Source: Prochlorococcus sp. AG-363-G03 | GTDB taxonomy: Bacteria > Cyanobacteriota > Cyanobacteriia > PCC-6307 > Cyanobiaceae | Length of the DNA stretch: 37,426 nucleotides | Assembly: GCA_003280265.1 (NCBI GenBank) | Contig: QCFJ01000010.1 | Location: 1-37,426, forward strand | Direction of reading: 5' to 3' | Part shown: positions 3,602 to 23,001 of the stretch, piece after piece | Position numbering within the stretch: the first letter of the stretch is position 1 | How the letters are laid out: each line of letters begins with the position of its first letter | Made by a program: the position numbers and the translations under genes | The notes under the pieces: generated by a model | What the model was told of the DNA's origin: nothing | The model's database searches: none | The model's input: only the letters and a program-made list of their open reading frames with translations

Positions 3602-4522
3602 TCATGGACATTTTGTGTCTGTTAATGGGTTTTCTTGCATTGGCCAAATCCTCATGTATTCAGGCATGCTGAATTTTCTTAAAATTCTAGTAAGACTCAA
3701 AATTCTATAAAACCAAAACCGAGCAGATTGTGTTGATGAGCCTGTGTATCTTGCTGATATGCCATTTTCAAGAAGACTACATGTCATAAATCCTTCAAGC
3801 CCAGCTCTTTGTTGACGGCATTTGACTAATAAATCAGATAAATCTTTTTGCTTTATTTCTTTAGGTGTAATCCAAGTTAAAGATCCATATACAGGTTTTT
3901 GCTCTAAGCCATGAATGGATTTCAATGCTTCTCCAGATAGTTCTAAGCGATCACTAAATTCATAATGTTTCCCATTAGTATTCTCCCTAAGGATTTCTAA
4001 AGATGATCTCCATACTCCACTTCCAAGTTTTTCCCCTGCAGCAGTTCGTCCTAAGCGAACTAAATCAACACATAAAAAACTTGATGAAGGATCAAGATTG
4101 ACAGTCATATTTTGTTCGAACAGACCCCCCTGATAGACAATTAGTTCTTGAGGGATCCACTCAAAGTCAGAATTCTGTTCAATATGAAAAAAACATTTTT
4201 GATTTGCCCAGCTCCCTTGTGGATTTAGTTTTGACCTGCCTCTACTTCCATAAACTTTTTGAGCTGCTACTGAAGAACATATAGCCCTGCTTTCTTTTTC
4301 AGCGTTTATACTTATTGTCAGTTGATCACCGCCAACAATCCCTCCGGCACTATGGAGAATTGGTATTTCACATCTTCCATCTTTTTTATCATGGAATACT
4401 TTCATTAATTTCAATGGGGCGGTGCATTTTGCCTGATGAATTGTTTTTAGACTATCGATCTCATTAGGACTTGACTTCTTGAAAAGTCTTAGATCACAAG
4501 TTCCATGCCATTGAGATGTCAT
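3602..4522 (-). CDS. ureD: Urease accessory protein UreD
   Basis: This 306-residue protein is the UreD (UreH) chaperone that binds apo-urease and, with UreF and UreG, guides nickel insertion. Family marks are HSAGGIVGGDQLTISI near residues 97-112, QELIVYQGGLFEQN, and the DLVRLGRTAAGEKL segment. The ATG at 4522 gives the usual beginning for cyanobacterial UreD (MTSQWHGTCDLRLFKK). It is the first gene of the leftward unit, 53 bp ahead of ureA, and is divergent from ureE. Having ureD grouped with the structural genes while ureEFG face the other way is the usual picocyanobacterial arrangement. Confidence 0.95.
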   Translation of the reverse strand: MTSQWHGTCDLRLFKKSSPNEIDSLKTIHQAKCTAPLKLMKVFHDKKDGRCEIPILHSAGGIVGGDQLTISINAEKESRAICSSVAAQKVYGSRGRSKLNPQGSWANQKCFFHIEQNSDFEWIPQELIVYQGGLFEQNMTVNLDPSSSFLCVDLVRLGRTAAGEKLGSGVWRSSLEILRENTNGKHYEFSDRLELSGEALKSIHGLEQKPVYGSLTWITPKEIKQKDLSDLLVKCRQQRAGLEGFMTCSLLENGISARYTGSSTQSARFWFYRILSLTRILRKFSMPEYMRIWPMQENPLTDTKCP

Positions 4523-4581
4523 TGAATAGTTTTATAGATTTTGCTCATTTAGTATTGAGAAAATAATAAATGTCTTATCTG

Positions 4582-4611
4582 GTAGATATAATATTTAAAA
4601 TTTATATCTAC
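4582..4611. promoter_or_regulatory. 30-bp palindrome in the ureD/ureE divergent region
   Basis: Two perfect 10-bp arms (GTAGATATAA and TTATATCTAC) are separated by a 10-bp AT-only spacer. The palindrome lies 13 bp ahead of the ureE start and 59 bp ahead of the ureD start, and contains a TATAAT-like -10 sequence. It could be an operator or part of back-to-back promoters. No exact NtcA box (GTA-N8-TAC) was found in this 102-bp region. Confidence 0.5.
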
Positions 4612-4624
4612 AAAGAATTGAAGC

Positions 4625-5065
4625 TTGTTACACGAATCAATCTATCTCACTGAAAGAATTAGTGCTCGAGGGATAAAAAATTGTCTTTTACTTCCCTTGT
4701 CTGCAAAAGAGAGGACTCAGCTTCGGGGAAAGCGATCAACTTTAGATGGGATCGATGTTATTTTAAATTTGCCTAGAGGAGGAGGTAGGTTAATGCCTGG
4801 AGAGGTATTGAAAAGTGAAAATTCAAAAGTTTTTGTAAGCATCGAGGCTGCTCAAGAAGATGTAATAAGAATTAGTTCAGAAAATAGATTGAAATTGTTA
4901 AAAGCTGCTTATCATTTAGGTAATAGACATGTTGAGATTGAGTTGAATGATAAAGAGTTATATTTACTTAATGATGTAGTGATGAAAGATATGTTAGAGA
5001 GACAAGGTTTTGCAGTAGAAAGTTTAAAAAGACCTTTTTCTCCTGAGATTGGAGCTTATGAGTAG
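4625..5065 (+). CDS. ureE: Urease accessory protein UreE (nickel chaperone)
   Basis: This 146-residue protein is the UreE metallochaperone that delivers nickel to the UreD-UreF-UreG complex. The family centre AAYHLGNRHVEIEL is present, with His102 at the position of the conserved nickel-binding His96 of Klebsiella UreE. The N-terminal RGKRSTLDG and LPRGGGRLMPGE strands are also typical. Unlike many UreE proteins it has no His-rich tail and ends in SPEIGAYE, so nickel storage is probably small. The start is a TTG at 4625, as no suitable ATG is near. It heads the rightward ureE-F-G unit, 20 bp before ureF. Confidence 0.93.
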   Translation: MLHESIYLTERISARGIKNCLLLPLSAKERTQLRGKRSTLDGIDVILNLPRGGGRLMPGEVLKSENSKVFVSIEAAQEDVIRISSENRLKLLKAAYHLGNRHVEIELNDKELYLLNDVVMKDMLERQGFAVESLKRPFSPEIGAYE

Positions 5066-13734: not shown

Positions 13735-14364
13735 CTAACTAGCCAGTCTAGAAATGTATGAATCTCTTGAGCCGGCATTGATCCATCCTGTGGCAATGGT
13801 TTTTGGATGGGTCTTATTGACACGGCCTCTATGAATATGTGTTAGCCCAGCGGGAAAAATAACTAGTTTTCCTCGTTCAGCTTTCTCATGATATTCCTGC
13901 CAATGAAACTCTGTCCCTCCTGAATCGACATCATTACAATACAAAATCCATGCTAAGACTCTGTGAACTGGTTCGGTCGCTTCTTCGCTTATAGTCCAGT
14001 CGCAGTGCCATTTCTTAAAACCTTCCCCAGGAGCATAACGTTGTAAGTTGAAAATGGGATTAACAAAGAGAGATTTTTCCGGGGCACATTCGTTAAAAAG
14101 TGGTCGTTCTTGAAGGTATTTTTGAAGACCAGCATTGACTCCTCTTATTATTACTTCAGACAAAGCAAATGATTCCGGATCAGTTCGATCTATTGCTACC
14201 AAGCTGATATCAGTAGAAATCTTTGCAGGATCTGAATAATTGTTGGCCCCATTACTGAAGGCGATTCCATCACGATGCAAGTCTGTGCGACGATCGAAAA
14301 ACGACATCACACCATCTGCAACAGATTCAAAACCTTTATTTCTATAACTAGCTATTAAATTCAT
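13735..14364 (-). CDS. 2-oxoglutarate/Fe(II)-dependent oxygenase (prolyl-4-hydroxylase-like)
   Basis: This 209-residue protein has the 2OG-Fe(II) dioxygenase core. The iron-binding HxD motif is His120-Cys-Asp122 in KKWHCDWT, the distal His is probably His178 in THIHRGRV, and the closing strand is KTIATGWINAG. The preceding LQRYAPGEGF (108-116) matches the YxxGxxF lead-in of prolyl-4-hydroxylase-like enzymes. Such enzymes use oxygen and 2-oxoglutarate to hydroxylate a protein or small molecule; the substrate cannot be told. There is no signal peptide, so it acts in the cytosol. It stands alone, and the 149 bp upstream include a weak GGGAT/ATCCC hairpin. Confidence 0.82.
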   Translation of the reverse strand: MNLIASYRNKGFESVADGVMSFFDRRTDLHRDGIAFSNGANNYSDPAKISTDISLVAIDRTDPESFALSEVIIRGVNAGLQKYLQERPLFNECAPEKSLFVNPIFNLQRYAPGEGFKKWHCDWTISEEATEPVHRVLAWILYCNDVDSGGTEFHWQEYHEKAERGKLVIFPAGLTHIHRGRVNKTHPKTIATGWINAGSRDSYISRLAS

Positions 14365-15081: not shown

Positions 15082-16155
15082 CTATCCGAATCCTTGAGGT
15101 ACCGTTTTTGTCCGAACCTTAAAATCCCAAACCGTAACTCCTCCGTTTGCATTTATTGCAGCCAAGGCTGTGTCATCAGGATGCCAAGCGATTTGGCTTA
15201 CAAGGTCACCTGCAAATGCACCACCAACTGGATCACCCTGACCATCTTTTTGGAGAAACCAAGAAAAAACTGAACCATCGCGCGCGCCAGAAGCTAAAAG
15301 CATTCCGCTATGTGAGAAAGCCAGGCATGAAATGGGTTCAGTATGAAGCATTAATTCTCCTGGAACAGTGCCCTCAGGGCCATCGCCTTGAAAACTCCAA
15401 ACTGTCACTCGATCACTACCTCCGGTAGCAAGAACTGTGCCAGTTTGATCAAAAGCTAGGTGACTTGGTTTGCCTGGATAGCCTGTCATCTCTGAATCTT
15501 GATCAGTTGAACGACGCCAGAAATGAACAGAATTATCCTGACTACCGCATGCCACTATGTCTCCATTTGGACTAAGCACCATTGATACAAGTGAACCTCG
15601 CCATTCCAATTTTTGATTGATCTTGTCGCTAACTACATCAAAAAAAGTTACCTGGCCATAGCATGCTGTTGCTAATTCATTTGAATTAGACCAAGCAATC
15701 GCGCTGACAGTGCTGGGATGTGCTTTTGATCTCCAGCGCTCTTTACCTTTTTTATCAAAAATATAGACGTATTTAGTAAAAACTACTGCTAAAAATTTTC
15801 CGTCTGGGGACCACTTGATGTGCTCAACCCATCCTTTCCCAAGTTCCAAATCGTTAGTTGACTTACCCTCATGACTTTCCCATAAATACACATGTCCATC
15901 CTGGCCTGCAGTAGCAAAAGCATTTCCATCTGGATGAATAGACATTGCTAGTAAGCCACCTTTATGCGTGTTTCTTGTTTGCCAAATGAGCTTTCCAGAT
16001 TTTCCCTCAAATGCGTAAAGCCCACCAGCGACATCACCTACTAAAAAGGTTTTACCTTGTAGTGCCCAGCCACAGGCAATCGCGTAGTCTTCAGCTTGAG
16101 CAGACCAACCTTCATGAAGCATTCCCTTGGGACTAAATGCTTCTATACCAGACAT
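15082..16155 (-). CDS. WD40-repeat protein linked to the COG0523 GTPase
   Basis: This 357-residue protein consists of about seven WD40 repeats predicting one beta-propeller. Repeat cores include GGLLAMSIHPDGNAFATAGQ (DGHVYLWE), VEHIKWSPDGKFLAVVF, VSAIAWSNSNELATACYG, LVSMVLSPNGDIVACGSQ, PSHLAFDQTGTVLATGGS, ISCLAFSHSGMLLASGARDG and VSQIAWHPDDTALAAINANG. There is no signal peptide, so it is probably a cytosolic scaffold. Its ATG lies inside the end of the GTPase gene (13-bp overlap), implying coupled translation. Position after znuA and the GTPase suggests it works with low-zinc metal handling; the binding partner is unknown. Confidence 0.85.
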   Translation of the reverse strand: MSGIEAFSPKGMLHEGWSAQAEDYAIACGWALQGKTFLVGDVAGGLYAFEGKSGKLIWQTRNTHKGGLLAMSIHPDGNAFATAGQDGHVYLWESHEGKSTNDLELGKGWVEHIKWSPDGKFLAVVFTKYVYIFDKKGKERWRSKAHPSTVSAIAWSNSNELATACYGQVTFFDVVSDKINQKLEWRGSLVSMVLSPNGDIVACGSQDNSVHFWRRSTDQDSEMTGYPGKPSHLAFDQTGTVLATGGSDRVTVWSFQGDGPEGTVPGELMLHTEPISCLAFSHSGMLLASGARDGSVFSWFLQKDGQGDPVGGAFAGDLVSQIAWHPDDTALAAINANGGVTVWDFKVRTKTVPQGFG

Positions 16156-17513
16156 TTGTCAAACTCCCTGCTCATTTCTGCTTCATCAAGATTTCTACCA
16201 ATGAATACGAGTTGGTTGTGGCGAGGTTCATTGCCCCATTCTTTATCAGGTTGAGCTGTGAATAGCATGTGTACTCCTTGAAAAACTATTCGCCTCGATT
16301 CACCCGCATAACTAATAAATCCTTTCGTGCGAAATATATCCACACCTTTCTCTGATAGGAGTCGACTTAGCCACCTATTGAGTTTCTCCGGATCTACATC
16401 ACCTACTCGCTCGATAGCGAATGAACCTACTTCGTCATCGTGTTCGTGTTCTGCCACCCAAACCCTCTCAGCGATTGGAGGGATTGTGGAAACGTTTTGA
16501 TCATCAGCATTTGAGGCTTTTACCTTAGTTATTTTTAAATTGAATTCCTCGGCTGTATGTTGGGTGAATAGACCTATATCTCTTGCCTTGTCAACGTCTA
16601 TGAGGAATGACTTAGTACCTTCGGATTGAAGTTGAAGGCTTACATGCTTGCCCACAGGGACTATGTCACCTGGGTTAATGGGTTGCTCTTTTTCGGCGTA
16701 AAGTCTCACGCATGATTCAGCACCAGTGTTGAGAGCTGTCTCATCTTTACCTTGGTTTGATAATAGGACGAGAGACATCGTAGGGTCGGGTCCCTCTTCT
16801 AGGGAAAGTTCATAGCGACCTTTTTCAAGCGAATACACACCTGTCCATTCAAATGGATACTCTGGTTCAAGAAAAGTAGGTCGACGCTTAAGTACTTGAT
16901 CTAGATCAAAAGCACTTAAGTTAAGCACCGTATCAATAGAGACATCTGCTTGTTTACTGCGAATGAAACGAGCCATACGATTCATATCGCGTAGCCGTGA
17001 CTCCAAATTATCAAGTGATTCATCTGTAACTAAGTCAGTTTTATTTAGAACAAGAACGTCAGCGAAGGCAACTTGCTCAGAGCTCTCATCACTTCGACCA
17101 AGTTGTTGTTCTATATGGGCAGCATCAACAAGTGTGACTATGCCATCAAGTGAAAACTCTTCACGAATTTCATCATCCATAAAGAATGTCTGGGCGACAG
17201 GACCAGGGTCAGCAAGCCCAGTAGTTTCAACTAACACATAGTCAAATTTGTCTCTCCTCTTCATGAGATTTCCAAGTACACGAATAAGATCTCCCCGAAC
17301 GGTGCAGCAGATACAACCATTAGACATTTCGAAGACTTCTTCATCCGCATTGATTACTAATCCTTGATCAATACCGACTTCACCATATTCATTTTCAATA
17401 ACAGCTATTTTTTTACCGTGCTCCTCGCTCAGAATTCGATTAAGTAGAGTTGTTTTGCCAGACCCTAGAAAACCAGTCAAAATTGTAACCGGTACTTTTT
17501 GCTTGTTACTCAT
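16143..17513 (-). CDS. COG0523 (CobW/G3E) GTPase with an extra ZnuA-like insert, putative zinc metallochaperone
   Basis: This 456-residue G3E GTPase has P-loop GFLGSGKTT (14-22), the COG0523 metal motif CICC (Cys67-Cys70), ETTGLADPGP (96-105), NKTD (157-160) and a normal CobW C-terminal domain (about 365-445). Between these lies an insert, residues 220-328, containing FEWTGVYSLEKGRYELSLEE and LFTQHTAEEFNLKI. The insert matches a segment of the ZnuA product upstream and is absent from ordinary CobW proteins. A short acidic/His stretch (AEHEHDDE) follows it. I chose the ATG at 17513, preceded by AAGGA; the frame is open further upstream, but that runs into the preceding gene. The operon position indicates a low-zinc chaperone of the ZagA/ZigA kind. 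Confidence 0.9.
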   Translation of the reverse strand: MSNKQKVPVTILTGFLGSGKTTLLNRILSEEHGKKIAVIENEYGEVGIDQGLVINADEEVFEMSNGCICCTVRGDLIRVLGNLMKRRDKFDYVLVETTGLADPGPVAQTFFMDDEIREEFSLDGIVTLVDAAHIEQQLGRSDESSEQVAFADVLVLNKTDLVTDESLDNLESRLRDMNRMARFIRSKQADVSIDTVLNLSAFDLDQVLKRRPTFLEPEYPFEWTGVYSLEKGRYELSLEEGPDPTMSLVLLSNQGKDETALNTGAESCVRLYAEKEQPINPGDIVPVGKHVSLQLQSEGTKSFLIDVDKARDIGLFTQHTAEEFNLKITKVKASNADDQNVSTIPPIAERVWVAEHEHDDEVGSFAIERVGDVDPEKLNRWLSRLLSEKGVDIFRTKGFISYAGESRRIVFQGVHMLFTAQPDKEWGNEPRHNQLVFIGRNLDEAEMSREFDKCLV

Positions 17514-17523
17514 TTCCTTTTTT

Positions 17524-17883
17524 TTAATGATGTGAACAAAGAGTCTTATCAAGAGAAATATCAGTAATCCAATTCTCTTGTATACCAAGTAATTCTAGTG
17601 ATTTTGATTGAAAGTCATCCAGCTCATTATAGTTGTATGGAATCTTTACTCTTAATATATTTATTCCTTTCTCTTTTTTAAGCGAATGATCTGAAAATTG
17701 AAGTTCTTTTAGATTGTCGATGTAATCAGATGAAATTATAAGTTTTAAGATTTTATCTTTATCCCACGGTGGCTTATCCATAAAACTTGCTTGATCTTCC
17801 CAGTGTTGTTTGTAAAATTTATATCCTTTAGGTGGAGACATTTTGAAATAAACAAACATTTCTAGTTTATTCAAATTAGACAT
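17524..17883 (-). CDS. Hypothetical protein in the znuA-GTPase operon, 119 aa
   Basis: This protein of about 119 residues lies between znuA (18-bp gap) and the GTPase gene (10-bp gap), all on one strand, so it is almost certainly co-transcribed. It starts MSNLNKLEMFVYFKMSPPKG, has an aromatic-rich segment (GYKFYKQHWEDQ) and a charged middle, and ends in a Cys-Ser-His-His tail that could bind metal. An in-frame TTG at 17898 is an alternative start. There is no signal peptide or membrane segment. No family is recognised. Confidence 0.7.
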   Translation of the reverse strand: MSNLNKLEMFVYFKMSPPKGYKFYKQHWEDQASFMDKPPWDKDKILKLIISSDYIDNLKELQFSDHSLKKEKGINILRVKIPYNYNELDDFQSKSLELLGIQENWITDISLDKTLCSHH

Positions 17884-17901
17884 GCATTGTTGTTTCAAAA
17901 G

Positions 17902-19395
17902 TTAAGGGTTACTTAAGGAACTCCATTCGTTCTCGAGCTTTTCCCCCTCTATCTGATCACATTCGCCGCCAAGTGAATTAACAATTGTGCATGTGTTATG
18001 TACAGCGACTGAAACAGTATTGCCTTTTAACATTAGTCCATCAACATAGATTTGATTTTTTGAGATTGGAGTTGAAGTTTGTCTACTTAAGTTTTTTAAC
18101 AGCTTGGAAGGAGGCTTTTGTTCAGCGAATAAAACTTTTACATTTTCTTCTTTGAGCTCGGATATTACTTTTGAAATGGTTTCTGGTCTAAGGCTGGATG
18201 AATCACCAACAAAATCTAATAGACTTAATGTTTTCAAGCCAAATGCCTCTCCATAATATTCCATTGCTTTGTGCTTAGAAACGATTGTCCTTTGATCGGC
18301 AGGAATCGTGGCAACTTGCTGTTGAGTCCACAAGTCTAAATCTTCCAATATAGAATTCACAGATTGAGTTCTCTCTTTTAAAACTTTTTTAGTTTCTCTA
18401 TCAAAGAAGGAAATTTTCTTATTGATATTTTTAGAAATGACATTTCCCATCTTGATGATGTTATGTGGATCATGCCAGATATGAGGATCTAAACCACCAT
18501 GATCATGGTGATGATGATGATCACCTTCATCTGGTACTTGAGCTATAGGTTCAACATCGTCGCCTGAAATATCTTTGAAGAAATGTTCTTCAGCTTCAAA
18601 CTCAAAAGGCATATGCTCCGTAAAGAAGGAATATTTACCAGCTTTTTTGATATTGACTGTAAATGTTGTGACGTCTTTTTTATCGTTAAATGTAAGAACA
18701 TATGCTTTTTCCTGAGCAATAAGCTTGTCATTATTGCGTTTAACTTCTGAATCTTTGGATACTAATAATTCTTTAGCAAGCTCTTCTGATGCTTCAATAT
18801 CACCAGATTTAAGAATAACCATTTTCATGGCAGGATCCGCATAGTCTCCATCGACTTTGGCAAGCGACCATTTGTATGTCCCTGCTGAAAGATCAAAAAC
18901 ACCAGCCCATTCAAAAGCTCCATCTCCATGGGAATCGCCATGATCATCATGGTCATCGTGATCGTCATGTTTAGCAGCTGAATGATCGCCATGATCATCG
19001 TGGTCATCGTGATGGTCGTCTATATCTATTGCGCTTACGCCAACAACAACAGTTAAGGGATTATCCAACCATTTTTTGATTGCAGGAGTCATCTCTGAAC
19101 CAAGAGTAAATACTTGATTCGCACTTCTTAGGGTTTGAGCTTGTCTTGGAGTGATCTTGACATCATGAACATCTTGTTTTCTGTCAATTAAGCAGGTTAC
19201 GGGTATTGAGGGTGGCGCAATTGCAGAAACGACATCGCAGACTAATGGCTCTACAGCAACAATTGATTTTGAAGTTGCCTGTGCACTCTGATTAATTCCC
19301 GAAAATAAAAATGCTCCAGCAAGAAAAGAGCTTTTGAGAATTGTGTTGTTGAATATTGATTTGCTCTTGATAGGTTGATTGGACAATTTTGACAT
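17902..19395 (-). CDS. znuA: Zinc ABC transporter, substrate-binding protein with inserted extra domain
   Basis: This 497-residue periplasmic zinc receptor belongs to the cluster A-I family (ZnuA). A signal peptide covers about 1-40 (cleavage likely after AQA). Zinc-site candidates are His77 in DVHDVKITP, His305/His308 in LDPHIWHDP, His375 in VSKHKAMEYYGEAFGL and Glu425. The normal family length is about 300-350; the excess lies in residues 124-300. That region holds a His/Asp-rich stretch (124-158), an extra domain (160-272) with FEWAGVFDLSAGTYKWSLAK and YSFFTEHMPFEFE, and a second His-rich stretch (290-300). The extra domain matches the insert in the GTPase two genes downstream. A Zur-like box lies 28 bp upstream. 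Confidence 0.93.
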   Translation of the reverse strand: MSKLSNQPIKSKSIFNNTILKSSFLAGAFLFSGINQSAQATSKSIVAVEPLVCDVVSAIAPPSIPVTCLIDRKQDVHDVKITPRQAQTLRSANQVFTLGSEMTPAIKKWLDNPLTVVVGVSAIDIDDHHDDHDDHGDHSAAKHDDHDDHDDHGDSHGDGAFEWAGVFDLSAGTYKWSLAKVDGDYADPAMKMVILKSGDIEASEELAKELLVSKDSEVKRNNDKLIAQEKAYVLTFNDKKDVTTFTVNIKKAGKYSFFTEHMPFEFEAEEHFFKDISGDDVEPIAQVPDEGDHHHHHDHGGLDPHIWHDPHNIIKMGNVISKNINKKISFFDRETKKVLKERTQSVNSILEDLDLWTQQQVATIPADQRTIVSKHKAMEYYGEAFGLKTLSLLDFVGDSSSLRPETISKVISELKEENVKVLFAEQKPPSKLLKNLSRQTSTPISKNQIYVDGLMLKGNTVSVAVHNTCTIVNSLGGECDQIEGEKLENEWSSLSNP

Positions 19396-19407: not shown

Positions 19408-19475
19408 TTGCTGACCATGAAACGATAATCATTTTCATTTGAGATTTGCAAGTATATTATGTTTCATGTCAGCAA
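19408..19475. promoter_or_regulatory. Inverted duplication spanning the znuA/znuC divergent promoters
   Basis: The left arm (19408-19429) and right arm (19456-19475) are reverse complements over 20 bases, with two single-base gaps. The shared core reads GTTTCATG and TCAGCAA on the outer strands. The left arm reaches into half of the Zur-like box; the right arm overlaps the likely -10 sequences of both genes (TATATTATG, 19453-19461). It could give paired operator half-sites or a cruciform. Confidence 0.7.
19423..19437. promoter_or_regulatory. Zur-like operator between znuA and znuC
   Basis: CGATAATCATTTTCA matches the TGATAATnATTATCA palindrome known for Zur-regulated genes at all but two positions. 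It lies 28 bp from the znuA ATG and 50 bp from the znuC ATG. There it would overlap the -35 region for znuC and sit just downstream of a likely znuA start site, so zinc-bound Zur could block both directions. The nearby zur gene supports the call. Confidence 0.75.
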
Positions 19476-19487
19476 ATCCTCTAATTG

Positions 19488-20183
19488 ATGCCTAGTTTGA
19501 TTGCTGAAAATGTGACATATGCCTATTCCAGTAAATTGAAACCTGCTTTAAGTAAGGTTTCTCTTAAGCTTGAGCCAGGTACCTTGACTGCTCTTGTTGG
19601 TCCCAATGGTGCTGGAAAGTCCACATTATTAAGTTTGCTTCAAGGGAACAGCAAACCAGATAAAGGAGAAATCACTGTTGGAGGTAAACCATTAATTAAT
19701 AATCGATCTCAAGTTGCTTTAATGCCTCAACGAGGAAAGTTGAATTGGAATTTTCCTATCACTGTTCAAGGATTAGTTTCATTAGGTCGAGTAAATCATT
19801 CGAAATCAACGTGTTGTGAGTTAGAGGCTGCTCTTCAACGTGTTGGAATATCTCATTTAGCAAAAAGGAGACTTGATGCTTTGTCTGGTGGACAGCAACA
19901 AAGGGCATTACTTGCAAAAACTTTAATGAATCCAGCCAAAATTTTTCTTCTTGATGAACCCTGTTCTGCATTTGATCCCCCCGCAAAAGAAGATTTTCTA
20001 TTAATCATTCGTCAGTTAGCTGATTCTGGATTGACTGTTTTTGTTAGCAGTCACGATTGGGGTACATCTTTAAATTCTTATGACAAAGTTGTTGTTCTAG
20101 ATAAGATAATTTTGGCCTCTGGCAATCCTCAAGAGGTTCAGGAAAAACTTAGTTCAATTAATTATTTGAGGTGGAAGTTATAG
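19488..20183 (+). CDS. znuC: Zinc ABC transporter ATPase
   Basis: This 231-residue ATPase has Walker A GPNGAGKST (38-46), signature LSGGQQQRALLAKTL, Walker B IFLLDEPCSAFDP and the switch His in VFVSSHDWG. Sequence style (MPQRGKLNWNFPITVQGLVSLGR) matches metal-importer ATPases of the ZnuC/MntA kind. I use the ATG at 19488, directly after an in-frame TTG. It is transcribed divergently from znuA through the Zur-like box. Zinc specificity comes from that box, from zur and from the His-rich receptor. It converges with zur, whose stop is 23 bp away. Confidence 0.93.
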   Translation: MPSLIAENVTYAYSSKLKPALSKVSLKLEPGTLTALVGPNGAGKSTLLSLLQGNSKPDKGEITVGGKPLINNRSQVALMPQRGKLNWNFPITVQGLVSLGRVNHSKSTCCELEAALQRVGISHLAKRRLDALSGGQQQRALLAKTLMNPAKIFLLDEPCSAFDPPAKEDFLLIIRQLADSGLTVFVSSHDWGTSLNSYDKVVVLDKIILASGNPQEVQEKLSSINYLRWKL

Positions 20184-20206: not shown

Positions 20207-20611
20207 TTATCCAGCGTTCAATTCTTGAGAACAATTTTGACATAGGCCAAAGTATTCAAGGGTATGAAACAAAAGTTCAAATTTTTGAGAAGCTTTTTTG
20301 GGCATTTCCATTGTTTTTACAGGACATCCTTGCAATTGAGTAGTTTCTCCGCAGCTGACACAAGTTAAATGATGTATATCTCTTTCCACTGGTGCATAAA
20401 GCACCTCACCATTAGGCAAATGTCTCGAGCGGATCAAACCTTGCTTTACTAGTTGTTGCAGGTTTCGATACACAGTCGTAAGCCCCATTGCTTTTTCACC
20501 GTTATGAAGTTGCCTATGGAGTTCTTGACCGCTCAATTCATCAGTACATCTCTTGAGTTCATCGAGCAGTTGTTGTTGACGCTTAGTGATTTCAGGTTTA
20601 CTTGTACTCAT
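20207..20611 (-). CDS. zur: Fur-family regulator, probably zinc-responsive Zur
   Basis: This Fur-family repressor (134 residues from the ATG at 20611; an in-frame ATG at 20647 adds 12) has a winged helix with the recognition segment MGLTTVYRNLQQLVKQGLI, then the metal-binding dimerisation half with HHLTCVSCG (first CxxC) and FGLCQNCSQ (second CxxC). Both CxxC pairs form the structural zinc site. Placement between znuC and znuB, and the Zur-like box nearby, make Zur far likelier than Fur or PerR. The intergenic DNA to znuB is at most 53 bp, with a TATCAA...TTTGAT dyad that may serve both genes. The start is uncertain, as neither ATG has a clear Shine-Dalgarno sequence. Confidence 0.88.
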   Translation of the reverse strand: MSTSKPEITKRQQQLLDELKRCTDELSGQELHRQLHNGEKAMGLTTVYRNLQQLVKQGLIRSRHLPNGEVLYAPVERDIHHLTCVSCGETTQLQGCPVKTMEMPKKASQKFELLFHTLEYFGLCQNCSQELNAG

Positions 20612-20664
20612 TATCAAGATCTGAGTTTGATCTCTTTTACTGACCATACTGAATCATTGGCTTA

Positions 20665-21450
20665 ATGTCTTTTATCAACACAAATTGGTGGATAATTCCT
20701 CTCTTAATGACTTCCTTCACAGGTGTGCTTTGTCCTGCTATGGGAACTGTGTTGATCACTCATAAAAGGCTTCTTCAAGTTAATTTGATTTCGCATTGTG
20801 TTCTGCCTGGGCTTGCATTGGCTATGTCGCTTGGTATGGATCCTTCTATTGGTGGGGTCATCAGCGGCTTAGTGGGAGCAATTGCAGCAGAAGGTTTGAC
20901 AAATAAAAAAAATCAAAATTACCAAGCTGTGATGAATACAATTCTTGCTGGTTCAATGGGACTTGGCGTTCTACTAATCCCTTTACTTGGAATCAGAATT
21001 GATTTGGAAGCTGTTTTATTTGGAGATTTATTAACTGCAAATTTTAGTGATCTATTAAGAACTTTGATTGCTTTCTCTGCTTTTCTCTGCTTATTGCTTT
21101 TGGGCTATGACAAGCTTGTGCATATTGGCCTGGATCCAGAAGGTGCAGCTTCAAGTGGAATTAATGTCTCTTTTTTAAATTTAGCTCTTGGTTTTACGAC
21201 TGCACTTGTCATTGTGAGCTCAATGTCAGCAGTGGGAATTATTCTTGTTATTGCTTTACTTTCAACTCCAACTTTGTTAGGGCTTCAGAAAGCTAGTTCT
21301 CTGTGGATTGCTATGGTTCGATCGTCAATATTTGGATTAGTTGTATCACTCATAGGTTTTTTGCTCGCTATTGTTTTAAATTTGCCTCCTGGACCTTTAA
21401 TTAGTGTTCTTTGTGTGGTGTCATTAATTTTGTTACCAAACAATACATAG
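20665..21450 (+). CDS. znuB: Zinc ABC transporter permease
   Basis: This 261-residue inner-membrane protein of the ABC-3 (ZnuB) family has about eight membrane helices. It opens near MTSFTGVLCPAMGTVLITHK and has the conserved LISHCVLPGLALAMSLG segment, the coupling-loop region after it, and a late IVSSMSAVGIILVIALLSTP helix. It forms the zinc channel with ZnuC. It starts on an ATG 17 bp past the longer zur start and reads away from zur, so it is separated from znuC by the regulator gene. Confidence 0.92.
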   Translation: MSFINTNWWIIPLLMTSFTGVLCPAMGTVLITHKRLLQVNLISHCVLPGLALAMSLGMDPSIGGVISGLVGAIAAEGLTNKKNQNYQAVMNTILAGSMGLGVLLIPLLGIRIDLEAVLFGDLLTANFSDLLRTLIAFSAFLCLLLLGYDKLVHIGLDPEGAASSGINVSFLNLALGFTTALVIVSSMSAVGIILVIALLSTPTLLGLQKASSLWIAMVRSSIFGLVVSLIGFLLAIVLNLPPGPLISVLCVVSLILLPNNT

Positions 21451-22299: not shown

Positions 22300-22740
22300 T
22301 TAGTCAGGATTGATGTGGGTTGCACATGGCATCCATAAATTACCCATTTTATGAACACCTATACAACCAAGCTTCTTAGCTTCTTGTATTGCTTTCTTTT
22401 TAGATGGGTAAGCATAAATATTGTTTGAAGGCAAAGAACTTTCTCTATTGATTGTTACAACTGATGGACCTGTTGGACTCCATACCTTTAAGCCCATGGT
22501 TGTTATGCCAGCAGAGAATATTCCCATACCTACAATTGAAGCATTGATCACCCCCATAGCCACTACACCAATAGAGACAACACCCATTGGGACGATTCCA
22601 ATGGTGACAATCCCCATGGGAACAATACCAATCGAGATATAACCAAGTGGTGCTATTCCAATCGCAATTTTTTTGGGTTTACTTCCACAATGAGAAGGGC
22701 CTTCTGATGCTTTCTGCTTAGAAGTATTTGAAGTTGTCAT
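22300..22740 (-). CDS. Protein with Gly-Ile/Val repeats and a C-terminal DUF3721 motif
   Basis: This 146-residue protein has three parts. First comes a polar N-terminus. Then about 60 residues of a near-regular 10-residue repeat (IGIVPMGIVT, IGIVPMGVVS, IGVVAMGVIN and variants) run from about 27 to 84. Last is a DUF3721-like C-terminus with GCIGVHKMGNLWMPC. The repeat is hydrophobic with Gly at fixed spacing, so it may pack as a beta-solenoid or insert in a membrane. The same WMPC motif occurs in the adjacent lipoprotein, so the pair probably arose by duplication or domain shuffling. The function is unknown. Confidence 0.7.
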   Translation of the reverse strand: MTTSNTSKQKASEGPSHCGSKPKKIAIGIAPLGYISIGIVPMGIVTIGIVPMGVVSIGVVAMGVINASIVGMGIFSAGITTMGLKVWSPTGPSVVTINRESSLPSNNIYAYPSKKKAIQEAKKLGCIGVHKMGNLWMPCATHINPD

Positions 22741-22752
22741 TGCTTAAACTTT

Positions 22753-23001
22753 TTAGTGATGATGGTGATGTCCATCATGTTTTGCTCCTTTTTCATGAGC
22801 ATCATGACTCTTGCAAGGCATCCATTTATCACCCATTTTATGAGCACCCTTACAATTGAAACCCTTTGCAGCTTTTTCAGCTTCTTTTCTAGTATCAAAG
22901 AGGGCACGAGTACTGCTTGTTTCTGAGTTGCTTGAGCAGCCTGTTAGTGAGAATGATAGTGACATAACCAAAACAGAAAAAATAGGCTTAAGGTTTTTCA
23001 T
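22753..23001 (-). CDS. DUF3721 lipoprotein with poly-His tail
   Basis: This 82-residue protein has a lipoprotein signal peptide (lipobox LTGC, Cys22), then a DUF3721 domain with CKGAHKMGDKWMPCKSH (about residues 49-65), and ends in a His-rich tail (HDGHHHHH). It should be anchored in the envelope facing the periplasm. The tail and the Cys/His-rich domain suggest metal binding, fitting the nearby zinc genes, but no metal can be assigned. It shares its DUF3721 motif with the downstream gene, 12 bp away on the same strand, so the two are probably one operon. Confidence 0.8.
   Translation of the reverse strand: MKNLKPIFSVLVMSLSFSLTGCSSNSETSSTRALFDTRKEAEKAAKGFNCKGAHKMGDKWMPCKSHDAHEKGAKHDGHHHHH

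Follow-up and report, generated by a model that had tools for sequence, protein, structure and literature searches.

The 37,426-nt contig QCFJ01000010.1 of Prochlorococcus sp. AG-363-G03 (assembly GCA_003280265.1; genome 57% complete), analysed over its whole length and referred to here as the window, carries a zinc-uptake gene cluster in which the substrate-binding protein (SBP) ZnuA and a neighboring COG0523/CobW-type GTPase contain the same additional segment. These segments are, with confidence close to certainty, homologous, and represent a single unnamed domain of approximately 110-126 residues. The ZnuA type of this domain has very probably spread sideways, entering resident ZnuA genes several times at Asp/Glu-His repeat tracts. 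The domain is undescribed, likely to have a metal-handling function, and not private to one operon; its spread among marine zinc-uptake proteins is the more surprising finding. As far as our searches reach, three things are new, namely the domain family, its presence in both an SBP and a metallochaperone, and its movement from one ZnuA backbone to another; the operon type and the patchy distribution of znuA in SAR11 are already known.

Comparison of the whole window ZnuA with the GTPase by blastp gave E = 8e-9, the alignment extending past the domain. The Smith-Waterman score was 94, against a mean of 27.3 (standard deviation 4.8, maximum 63) in 5000 shuffles, and hhalign of six ZnuA-type against ten GTPase-type copies returned a significant match (98.2% probability, E = 3.5e-14, 102 columns, 27% identity). 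The initial annotation, working by eye, had proposed such a shared extra domain and named an HHalign comparison as its check; all three results confirm that observation. The residue ranges it gave (ZnuA 160-272, GTPase 220-328) begin correctly within a few residues, the ZnuA copy being approximately 14 residues longer at its end. The copies found in haloarchaea and Alicyclobacillus are intermediates, which match the ZnuA and GTPase types alike, and the ZnuA and GTPase copies, at 27% identity, are distant paralogues of each other. A resemblance of unrelated segments through chance or composition, for which no supporting point was found, is already refuted at the sequence level by the pairwise and profile comparisons and by these intermediates, and its probability is negligible. 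Within this genome the domain profile matches two places, both on this contig, so that the extra domain is indeed missing from the ordinary relatives, as had been annotated; CobW_C matches four places, and a further ZnuA-family gene, on contig C1, lies outside the domain-profile matches.

The carrier proteins belong to known families. Window ZnuA matches PF01297 on both sides of the insert with 164.4 bits (curated cut-off 29), which places it among the Cluster A-I metal SBPs; the His-rich loop and the FUR and znuBC neighbors suggest that the metal is zinc. The GTPase scores 207 bits with PF02492 and 88.6 bits with PF07683 and its translation contains the GCICC motif, as in COG0523/G3E proteins. 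By comparison, no Pfam-A or NCBIfam model covers the insert in the window proteins and relatives scanned, overlaps being partial and below threshold, and PDB sequence searches yielded nothing convincing, the best being partial matches at E 0.08 and above. Window ZnuA had no ZinT match in hmmscan against Pfam up to E = 1, where the HMMER filters drop most weak matches; the ZrgA profile reached 15.2 bits (cut-off 27.4) over residues 121-158, which is the His tract, and the protein is thus not assigned to ZrgA. No relative of the domain was found in the viral contigs and phages searched, and no description of it in the literature searches, as far as the available portions of the sources go.

In ZnuA the domain lies within the His-rich loop. 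A near relative, G219, possesses the same operon with a domain-free ZnuA in which the loop is one unbroken His/Asp tract, which shows that ZnuA has a single His-rich loop with the domain inside it. The earlier description of a domain lying between two His-rich loops therefore needs amendment, although His residues do occur on both sides. Among 112 carrier open reading frames (ORFs), many of them near-identical, the 40 residues before the insert contain a median of 10 His (range 0-14) and the 40 residues after it a median of 8 (6-11); front arms without His are found in carriers such as L079 and L110, and the Nitrosopumilus ZnuAs are nearly His-free there too. The GTPase insert sits just before a His-containing linker between the G domain and CobW_C, and all 92 distinct insert-bearing GTPases have an HxH within 60 residues after the insert. 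Two insert-free GTPase paralogues of the same genome possess a long plain His tract at that linker, indicating that the His motif is a property of the GTPase and not of the insert. Tandem copies of the domain were found in 19 Prochlorococcus ZnuA loci (L110, L079, L080-L086, part of L088-L096, and L103), where the two copies are 68-91% identical and a 14-residue linker, EPDMGGHSEHGAEG or close to it, connects them. An apparent 873-residue two-copy ZnuA frame in G223 was rejected, as it contains an assembly gap with N in mid-frame. A paralogous Nitrosopumilus ZnuA (L210, 617-1960; contig C4 of G296) has a different, helical-looking insertion of approximately 90 residues in its His-rich loop, which suggests that this loop may be a general insertion site.

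The domain occurs in both bacteria and archaea. The genome tallies that follow are samples with the centre genomes counted in, and the loose first look may miss distant copies; the genome-contig scan detected 381 relatives, and the 80 nearest to the window were retained. Searching with the GTPase copy revealed the domain in 23 of 292 cyanobacterial genomes; with a mixed profile it was present in 50 of 201 genomes of the window's family (picocyanobacteria). Forty of these 50 have both copies, ten the GTPase copy alone and none the ZnuA copy alone; four of the ten are at least 99% complete, the rest (65-90%) may simply miss the znuA copy. The mixed profile also detected the domain in 2/398 genomes of Pseudomonadota, in 2/151 of the phylum and 3/151 of the family of a Nitrosopumilus metagenome-assembled genome (MAG). 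Eight of 147 genomes of the SAR11 order were positive at one place each, all ZnuA-like and one a truncated frame. The domain was also present in one of 199 genomes in the order of a rhizobial MAG and in both genomes of a gammaproteobacterial MAG's order. A single match, in ZnuA, was obtained from each source genome of the rhizobial, SAR11 and two gammaproteobacterial copies. ZnuA carriers include SAR11, gammaproteobacteria, a rhizobial MAG, Nitrosopumilus MAGs and haloarchaea.

Plasmid records extend this list to haloarchaeal SBPs, to GTPases of Paraburkholderia and Pantoea, and to three stand-alone haloarchaeal domain proteins with His on both sides, one of them adjoining urease genes. They also include a multi-pass membrane protein of Alicyclobacillus (Bacillota) with the domain between two His-containing stretches; no Pfam family covers this whole protein, its C-terminal piece matching only Mntp, below the cut-off. 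It may be a nickel/cobalt (NicO-like) protein. Most of the contexts seen are metal-related gene neighborhoods. In the Nitrosopumilus family, loci L126, L127, L136 and L209 encode an insert-bearing GTPase, with a WD40 gene adjoining in three, and the ZnuA of L209 (G1062) has a long EEHSGEEEHSGE repeat where the domain would be. On a Pantoea soli plasmid (L129, approximately 4001-4700) the insert-bearing GTPase gene is broken by stops and frame changes; its neighbors are WD40-like, nickel-transporter and FUR-type genes and zigA.

The initial annotation had placed one copy in the periplasm and the other in the cytosol, and this is consistent with a signal sequence in ZnuA, which is probably periplasmic, and with the cytosolic type of the GTPase. 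It had further viewed the domain as a device of one operon, used on both sides of the membrane. Two such proteins of the operon do share it, but it occurs far beyond the operon, and many carriers hold a single copy; the notion of one shared device is thus only partly supported, and the ZnuA and GTPase copies need not act as a pair.

The history of the ZnuA-type domain is decoupled, though not wholly, from that of its carriers. Identities were compared across 11 ZnuA carriers. The domain of window ZnuA shares 67.5-73.8% identity with those of SAR11 (L072), gammaproteobacteria (L075, L077), the rhizobial MAG (L100) and the Nitrosopumilus MAG (L107), as against 17.3-26.4% for the C-terminal lobe and 20.4-29.7% for the N-terminal part of the same proteins. 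With three Prochlorococcus ZnuAs the values are 68.3-70.6% (domain) and 58.0-64.4% (backbone), and with the domains of haloarchaeal SBPs 34-36%. Among nine GTPases the insert is the least conserved of the three parts in 36 of 36 pairs; for instance, the window GTPase and Nitrosopumilus L127 are 24.5% identical in the insert and 62.6% in the G domain. The two types therefore have opposite histories: across phyla the insert is the best-conserved part of ZnuA and the least-conserved part of the GTPase.

Phylogenetic analysis of 36 ZnuA backbones (15 with and 21 without the insert) requires six state changes, at least five of them forced by starred branches; in it the Nitrosopumilus carriers have a domain-free paralogue as their sister (100/100). 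This tree has long branches, which prompted a program warning. In the domain tree the ZnuA type forms one clade (100/99) and the GTPase type another (90/90, not starred). From the window to Halothiobacillaceae the path is 0.39 on the domain tree and 7.35 on the backbone tree, the latter not to be taken literally because of the long branches. A separate SAR11 tree was built from 27 ingroup rows (seven with and 20 without the insert, the latter drawn from 115 genomes with a family match) and two outgroup rows; it contains four changes, all forced by starred branches. SAR11 L072, with the insert, has a backbone 94.2% identical to that of L232, without it, and their DNA alignment (89.2% identical over 1083 ungapped positions) places the indel within Asp/Glu-His codon repeats. 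Two SAR11 pairs share a backbone identity of 78.6%, but domain identity is 98.4% between L171 and L173 and 73.8% between L072 and L212. The G+C content of the domain departs from that of the rest of the gene in L075 (39.4 vs 52.5%) and L077 (39.9 vs 49.6%), as after import from an A+T-rich donor. The repeated Asp/Glu-His codons flanking the domain would serve as the recombination sites. Beside znuA in SAR11 lies a DUF1826 gene (L072, 5949-6593, by Pfam match); a gene alike by eye is present in L212 (3405-4052).

Several observations weigh against such a spread. Domain and backbone distances are correlated (Spearman 0.44; 55 pairs, haloarchaea left out), monophyly of the SAR11 domains is not rejected by the approximately unbiased (AU) test (p 0.079), and the rhizobial L100 domain shows no G+C contrast. 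An alternative is vertical descent with many losses, in which an old ZnuA ancestor had the domain, almost every lineage has since lost it, and strong constraint holds distant copies at approximately 70% identity. The rather level identity among ZnuA-type copies (approximately 61-78%) resembles saturation under constraint, the Prochlorococcus domains form one clade (89/86), and there is at least one loss-like case, G219, which is nested among carriers. Such descent is distinctly unlikely, given that the domain is rare in Pseudomonadota, in the rhizobial order and in the SAR11 order, where 115 of the 147 genomes have a ZnuA-family gene yet only eight have the domain; that the carriers belong to different ZnuA subfamilies; and that SAR11 domains can be 98.4% identical on backbones at 78.6%, with a G+C contrast in two other carriers. 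Because the Prochlorococcus domains form one clade, the simplest reading within Prochlorococcus is one acquisition followed by descent, tandem duplication and loss. Taken further, sideways spread would make the ZnuA type a mobile protein cassette, a metal-handling module that spreads among marine bacteria and archaea as part of a gene, enters resident ZnuA genes by recombination at the repeated Asp/Glu-His codons of the His-rich loop, and improves zinc capture under scarcity. Its family would also serve cytosolic COG0523 metallochaperones, exported stand-alone proteins and a transporter-like membrane protein; this broader picture we put forward tentatively.

One further question is what the domain does. 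Across 200 distinct copies (104 from ZnuA, 89 from GTPases and 7 from other proteins; 39 clusters at 80%), no variation at all is seen at five positions, E2, G12, D27, H101 and E105. Given the composition, the chance that at least four of five invariant positions are Asp, Glu or His is approximately 0.004-0.007. Sensing, docking and metal binding, all suggested in the initial annotation, are possible; the invariant acidic and His residues, together with the regular association with His tracts and metal genes, favor metal handling, and E2, D27, H101 and E105 are candidate metal ligands. Our best overall explanation, which we regard as reasonably probable, is an unnamed domain that accompanies His-rich tracts in metal-uptake and metal-chaperone proteins and would act there as a metal-handling module; the narrower claim that metal handling is its main function appears evenly balanced. 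The His arms would collect metal, and the domain would hold it and then hand it on. In ZnuA it would keep zinc gathered by the arms near the mouth of the binding cleft and then release it; its role in the GTPase would be either to load the linker that joins the G domain to CobW_C or to present metal from that linker.

Some points temper this assignment. Part of the invariance follows from the search itself, since the genome scan was seeded with D-P and H-x3-E patterns. Copies spanning 100 or fewer model positions were removed from the set; the decayed copy of Pantoea soli, in which both E2 and D27 are missing, was one of these. A single invariant His accompanied by three carboxylates does not resemble the classical zinc site, and these residues could instead form a structural network. 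G219, moreover, has lost or never had the ZnuA insert, which is therefore dispensable. If the domain were instead a docking module, that is a protein-interaction surface binding no metal, through which ZnuA would contact the outer-membrane or permease side and the GTPase a client or WD40 partner, one would expect a partner-specific surface to diverge as strongly as the GTPase copy has. The WD40 genes that adjoin insert-bearing GTPases in cyanobacteria, on the Paraburkholderia plasmid and in Nitrosopumilus MAGs, and a domain without a classical His/Cys site, would fit as well. We consider docking rather unlikely, as the ZnuA type functions in widely differing hosts and on different backbones, which makes a host-specific partner improbable, stand-alone copies have His tails, and the acidic and His residues are invariant. 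A structural spacer, merely splitting the His tract and keeping its halves apart with no chemistry of its own, would suit a domain that lies inside repeat tracts of freely varying length and is doubled in 19 Prochlorococcus ZnuAs; a spacer should drift, however, and this is the best-conserved part of ZnuA across phyla, so that we hold this explanation to be very improbable.

The coordinates of the domain copies and of the surrounding genes are collected in Table 1.

Table 1. Features of the zinc-related gene cluster in the window (contig QCFJ01000010.1)
Feature	Position	Strand	Evidence
znuA, zinc ABC-transporter substrate-binding protein with inserted domain, 497 aa	17902..19395	-	PF01297, E 4.6e-48, two stretches flanking insert
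Domain copy in ZnuA, residues 161-286	18538..18915	-	blastp, hhalign, genome profile search
His-rich arm of ZnuA loop ahead of domain, approximately residues 127-160	18916..19017	-	read off translation
His-rich arm of ZnuA loop past domain, DHHHHHDHGG, residues 292-301	18493..18522	-	read off translation
COG0523/CobW-type GTPase, 456 aa, from ATG 17513	16143..17513	-	PF02492, E 1.8e-61, and PF07683, E 2.5e-25, flanking insert
Domain copy in GTPase, residues 221-331, between G domain and CobW_C	16521..16853	-	blastp, hhalign, genome profile search
EHEHDDE motif past GTPase insert, residues 355-361	16431..16451	-	HxH within 60 aa after insert in 92/92 distinct GTPases
WD40-repeat protein, overlaps end of GTPase gene	15082..16155	-	PF00400; also adjoins other insert-bearing GTPases
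znuC-like ABC ATPase, divergent to znuA	19485..20183	+	PF00005
FUR-family regulator, probably Zur	20207..20647	-	PF01475, E 6.8e-18
znuB-like ABC permease	20665..21450	+	PF00950, E 3.8e-41
FUR-box-like sequence GATAATCATTTTCA, znuA-znuC intergenic	19424..19437	+	exact match to pattern GATAATNATTNTCA, picked after reading the sequence

The GTPase ORF is open to a TTG at 17588 (16143-17588, - strand), and its in-frame ATG was chosen by inspection. The znuC, FUR-family and znuB genes sit across a short divergent promoter from znuA; the probable Zur identity of the regulator is based upon these neighbors. Pattern GATAATNATTNTCA, which is post hoc, has three matches in the window at one mismatch or fewer, with 0.64 expected. 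Between the GTPase gene and znuA lies a 124-residue ORF (17524-17898, - strand) without a Pfam match; many relatives encode it at 53-87% identity (tblastn; among the 40 matches listed, four are the window itself), whereas Prochlorococcus G163 and G219 have too little space between znuA and the GTPase gene to accommodate it. Two adjacent DUF3721 proteins are encoded at 22300-22740 and 22753-23001 (- strand); one has GLTT repeats, and the other has a lipoprotein-like start and a His-rich tail. A 2OG-Fe(II) oxygenase-like protein is encoded near the zinc cluster at 13735-14364 (- strand).

Among known systems, AdcA of streptococci consists of a zinc substrate-binding, ZnuA-like lobe fused to a C-terminal ZinT domain. 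Window ZnuA resembles it in being a zinc SBP with an extra zinc-related domain, and differs in that its domain lies inside the His-rich loop rather than at the C-terminus and in having no ZinT match. The His-rich loop of Synechocystis ZnuA is said to raise the zinc concentration near the cleft (PMC8786288); this protein shares the SBP family and the His-rich loop with window ZnuA, but no domain within the loop is described in the available part of that source, whereas the window loop holds a 126-residue insert. Haas et al. (2009; PMC2770081) reported that COG0523 subfamily 5 genes adjoin WD40 and znuABC genes; the window agrees with this in gene neighborhood alone, and its GTPase possesses an inserted domain, which the accessible text of that paper does not describe. 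ZepA, a secreted cyanobacterial zinc-uptake exoprotein (PMC10957091), likewise functions in zinc uptake, and its genomic context, with Zur, COG0523 and ZnuA, is similar, but it is distinguished by being a PEP-CTERM exoprotein. A 2016 survey (PMC4771312) reported that znuA of SAR11 is patchy, half (50%) of the genomes having it, and remarked on how frequent it is among surface strains; the domain is not mentioned in the portion available to us.

The domain would offer a direct test of the long-debated role of the ZnuA His-rich loop, for which natural ZnuA pairs with and without the insert exist, and the GTPase copy provides a handle on how COG0523 proteins get their metal. Open-ocean waters are poor in zinc, and among the carriers are major marine groups, namely Prochlorococcus, SAR11 and Nitrosopumilus. 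If correct, a domain that passes between bacterial and archaeal zinc-uptake proteins would amount to a transferable part for zinc scavenging, and its mobility would explain why near-identical strains differ in its presence or absence.

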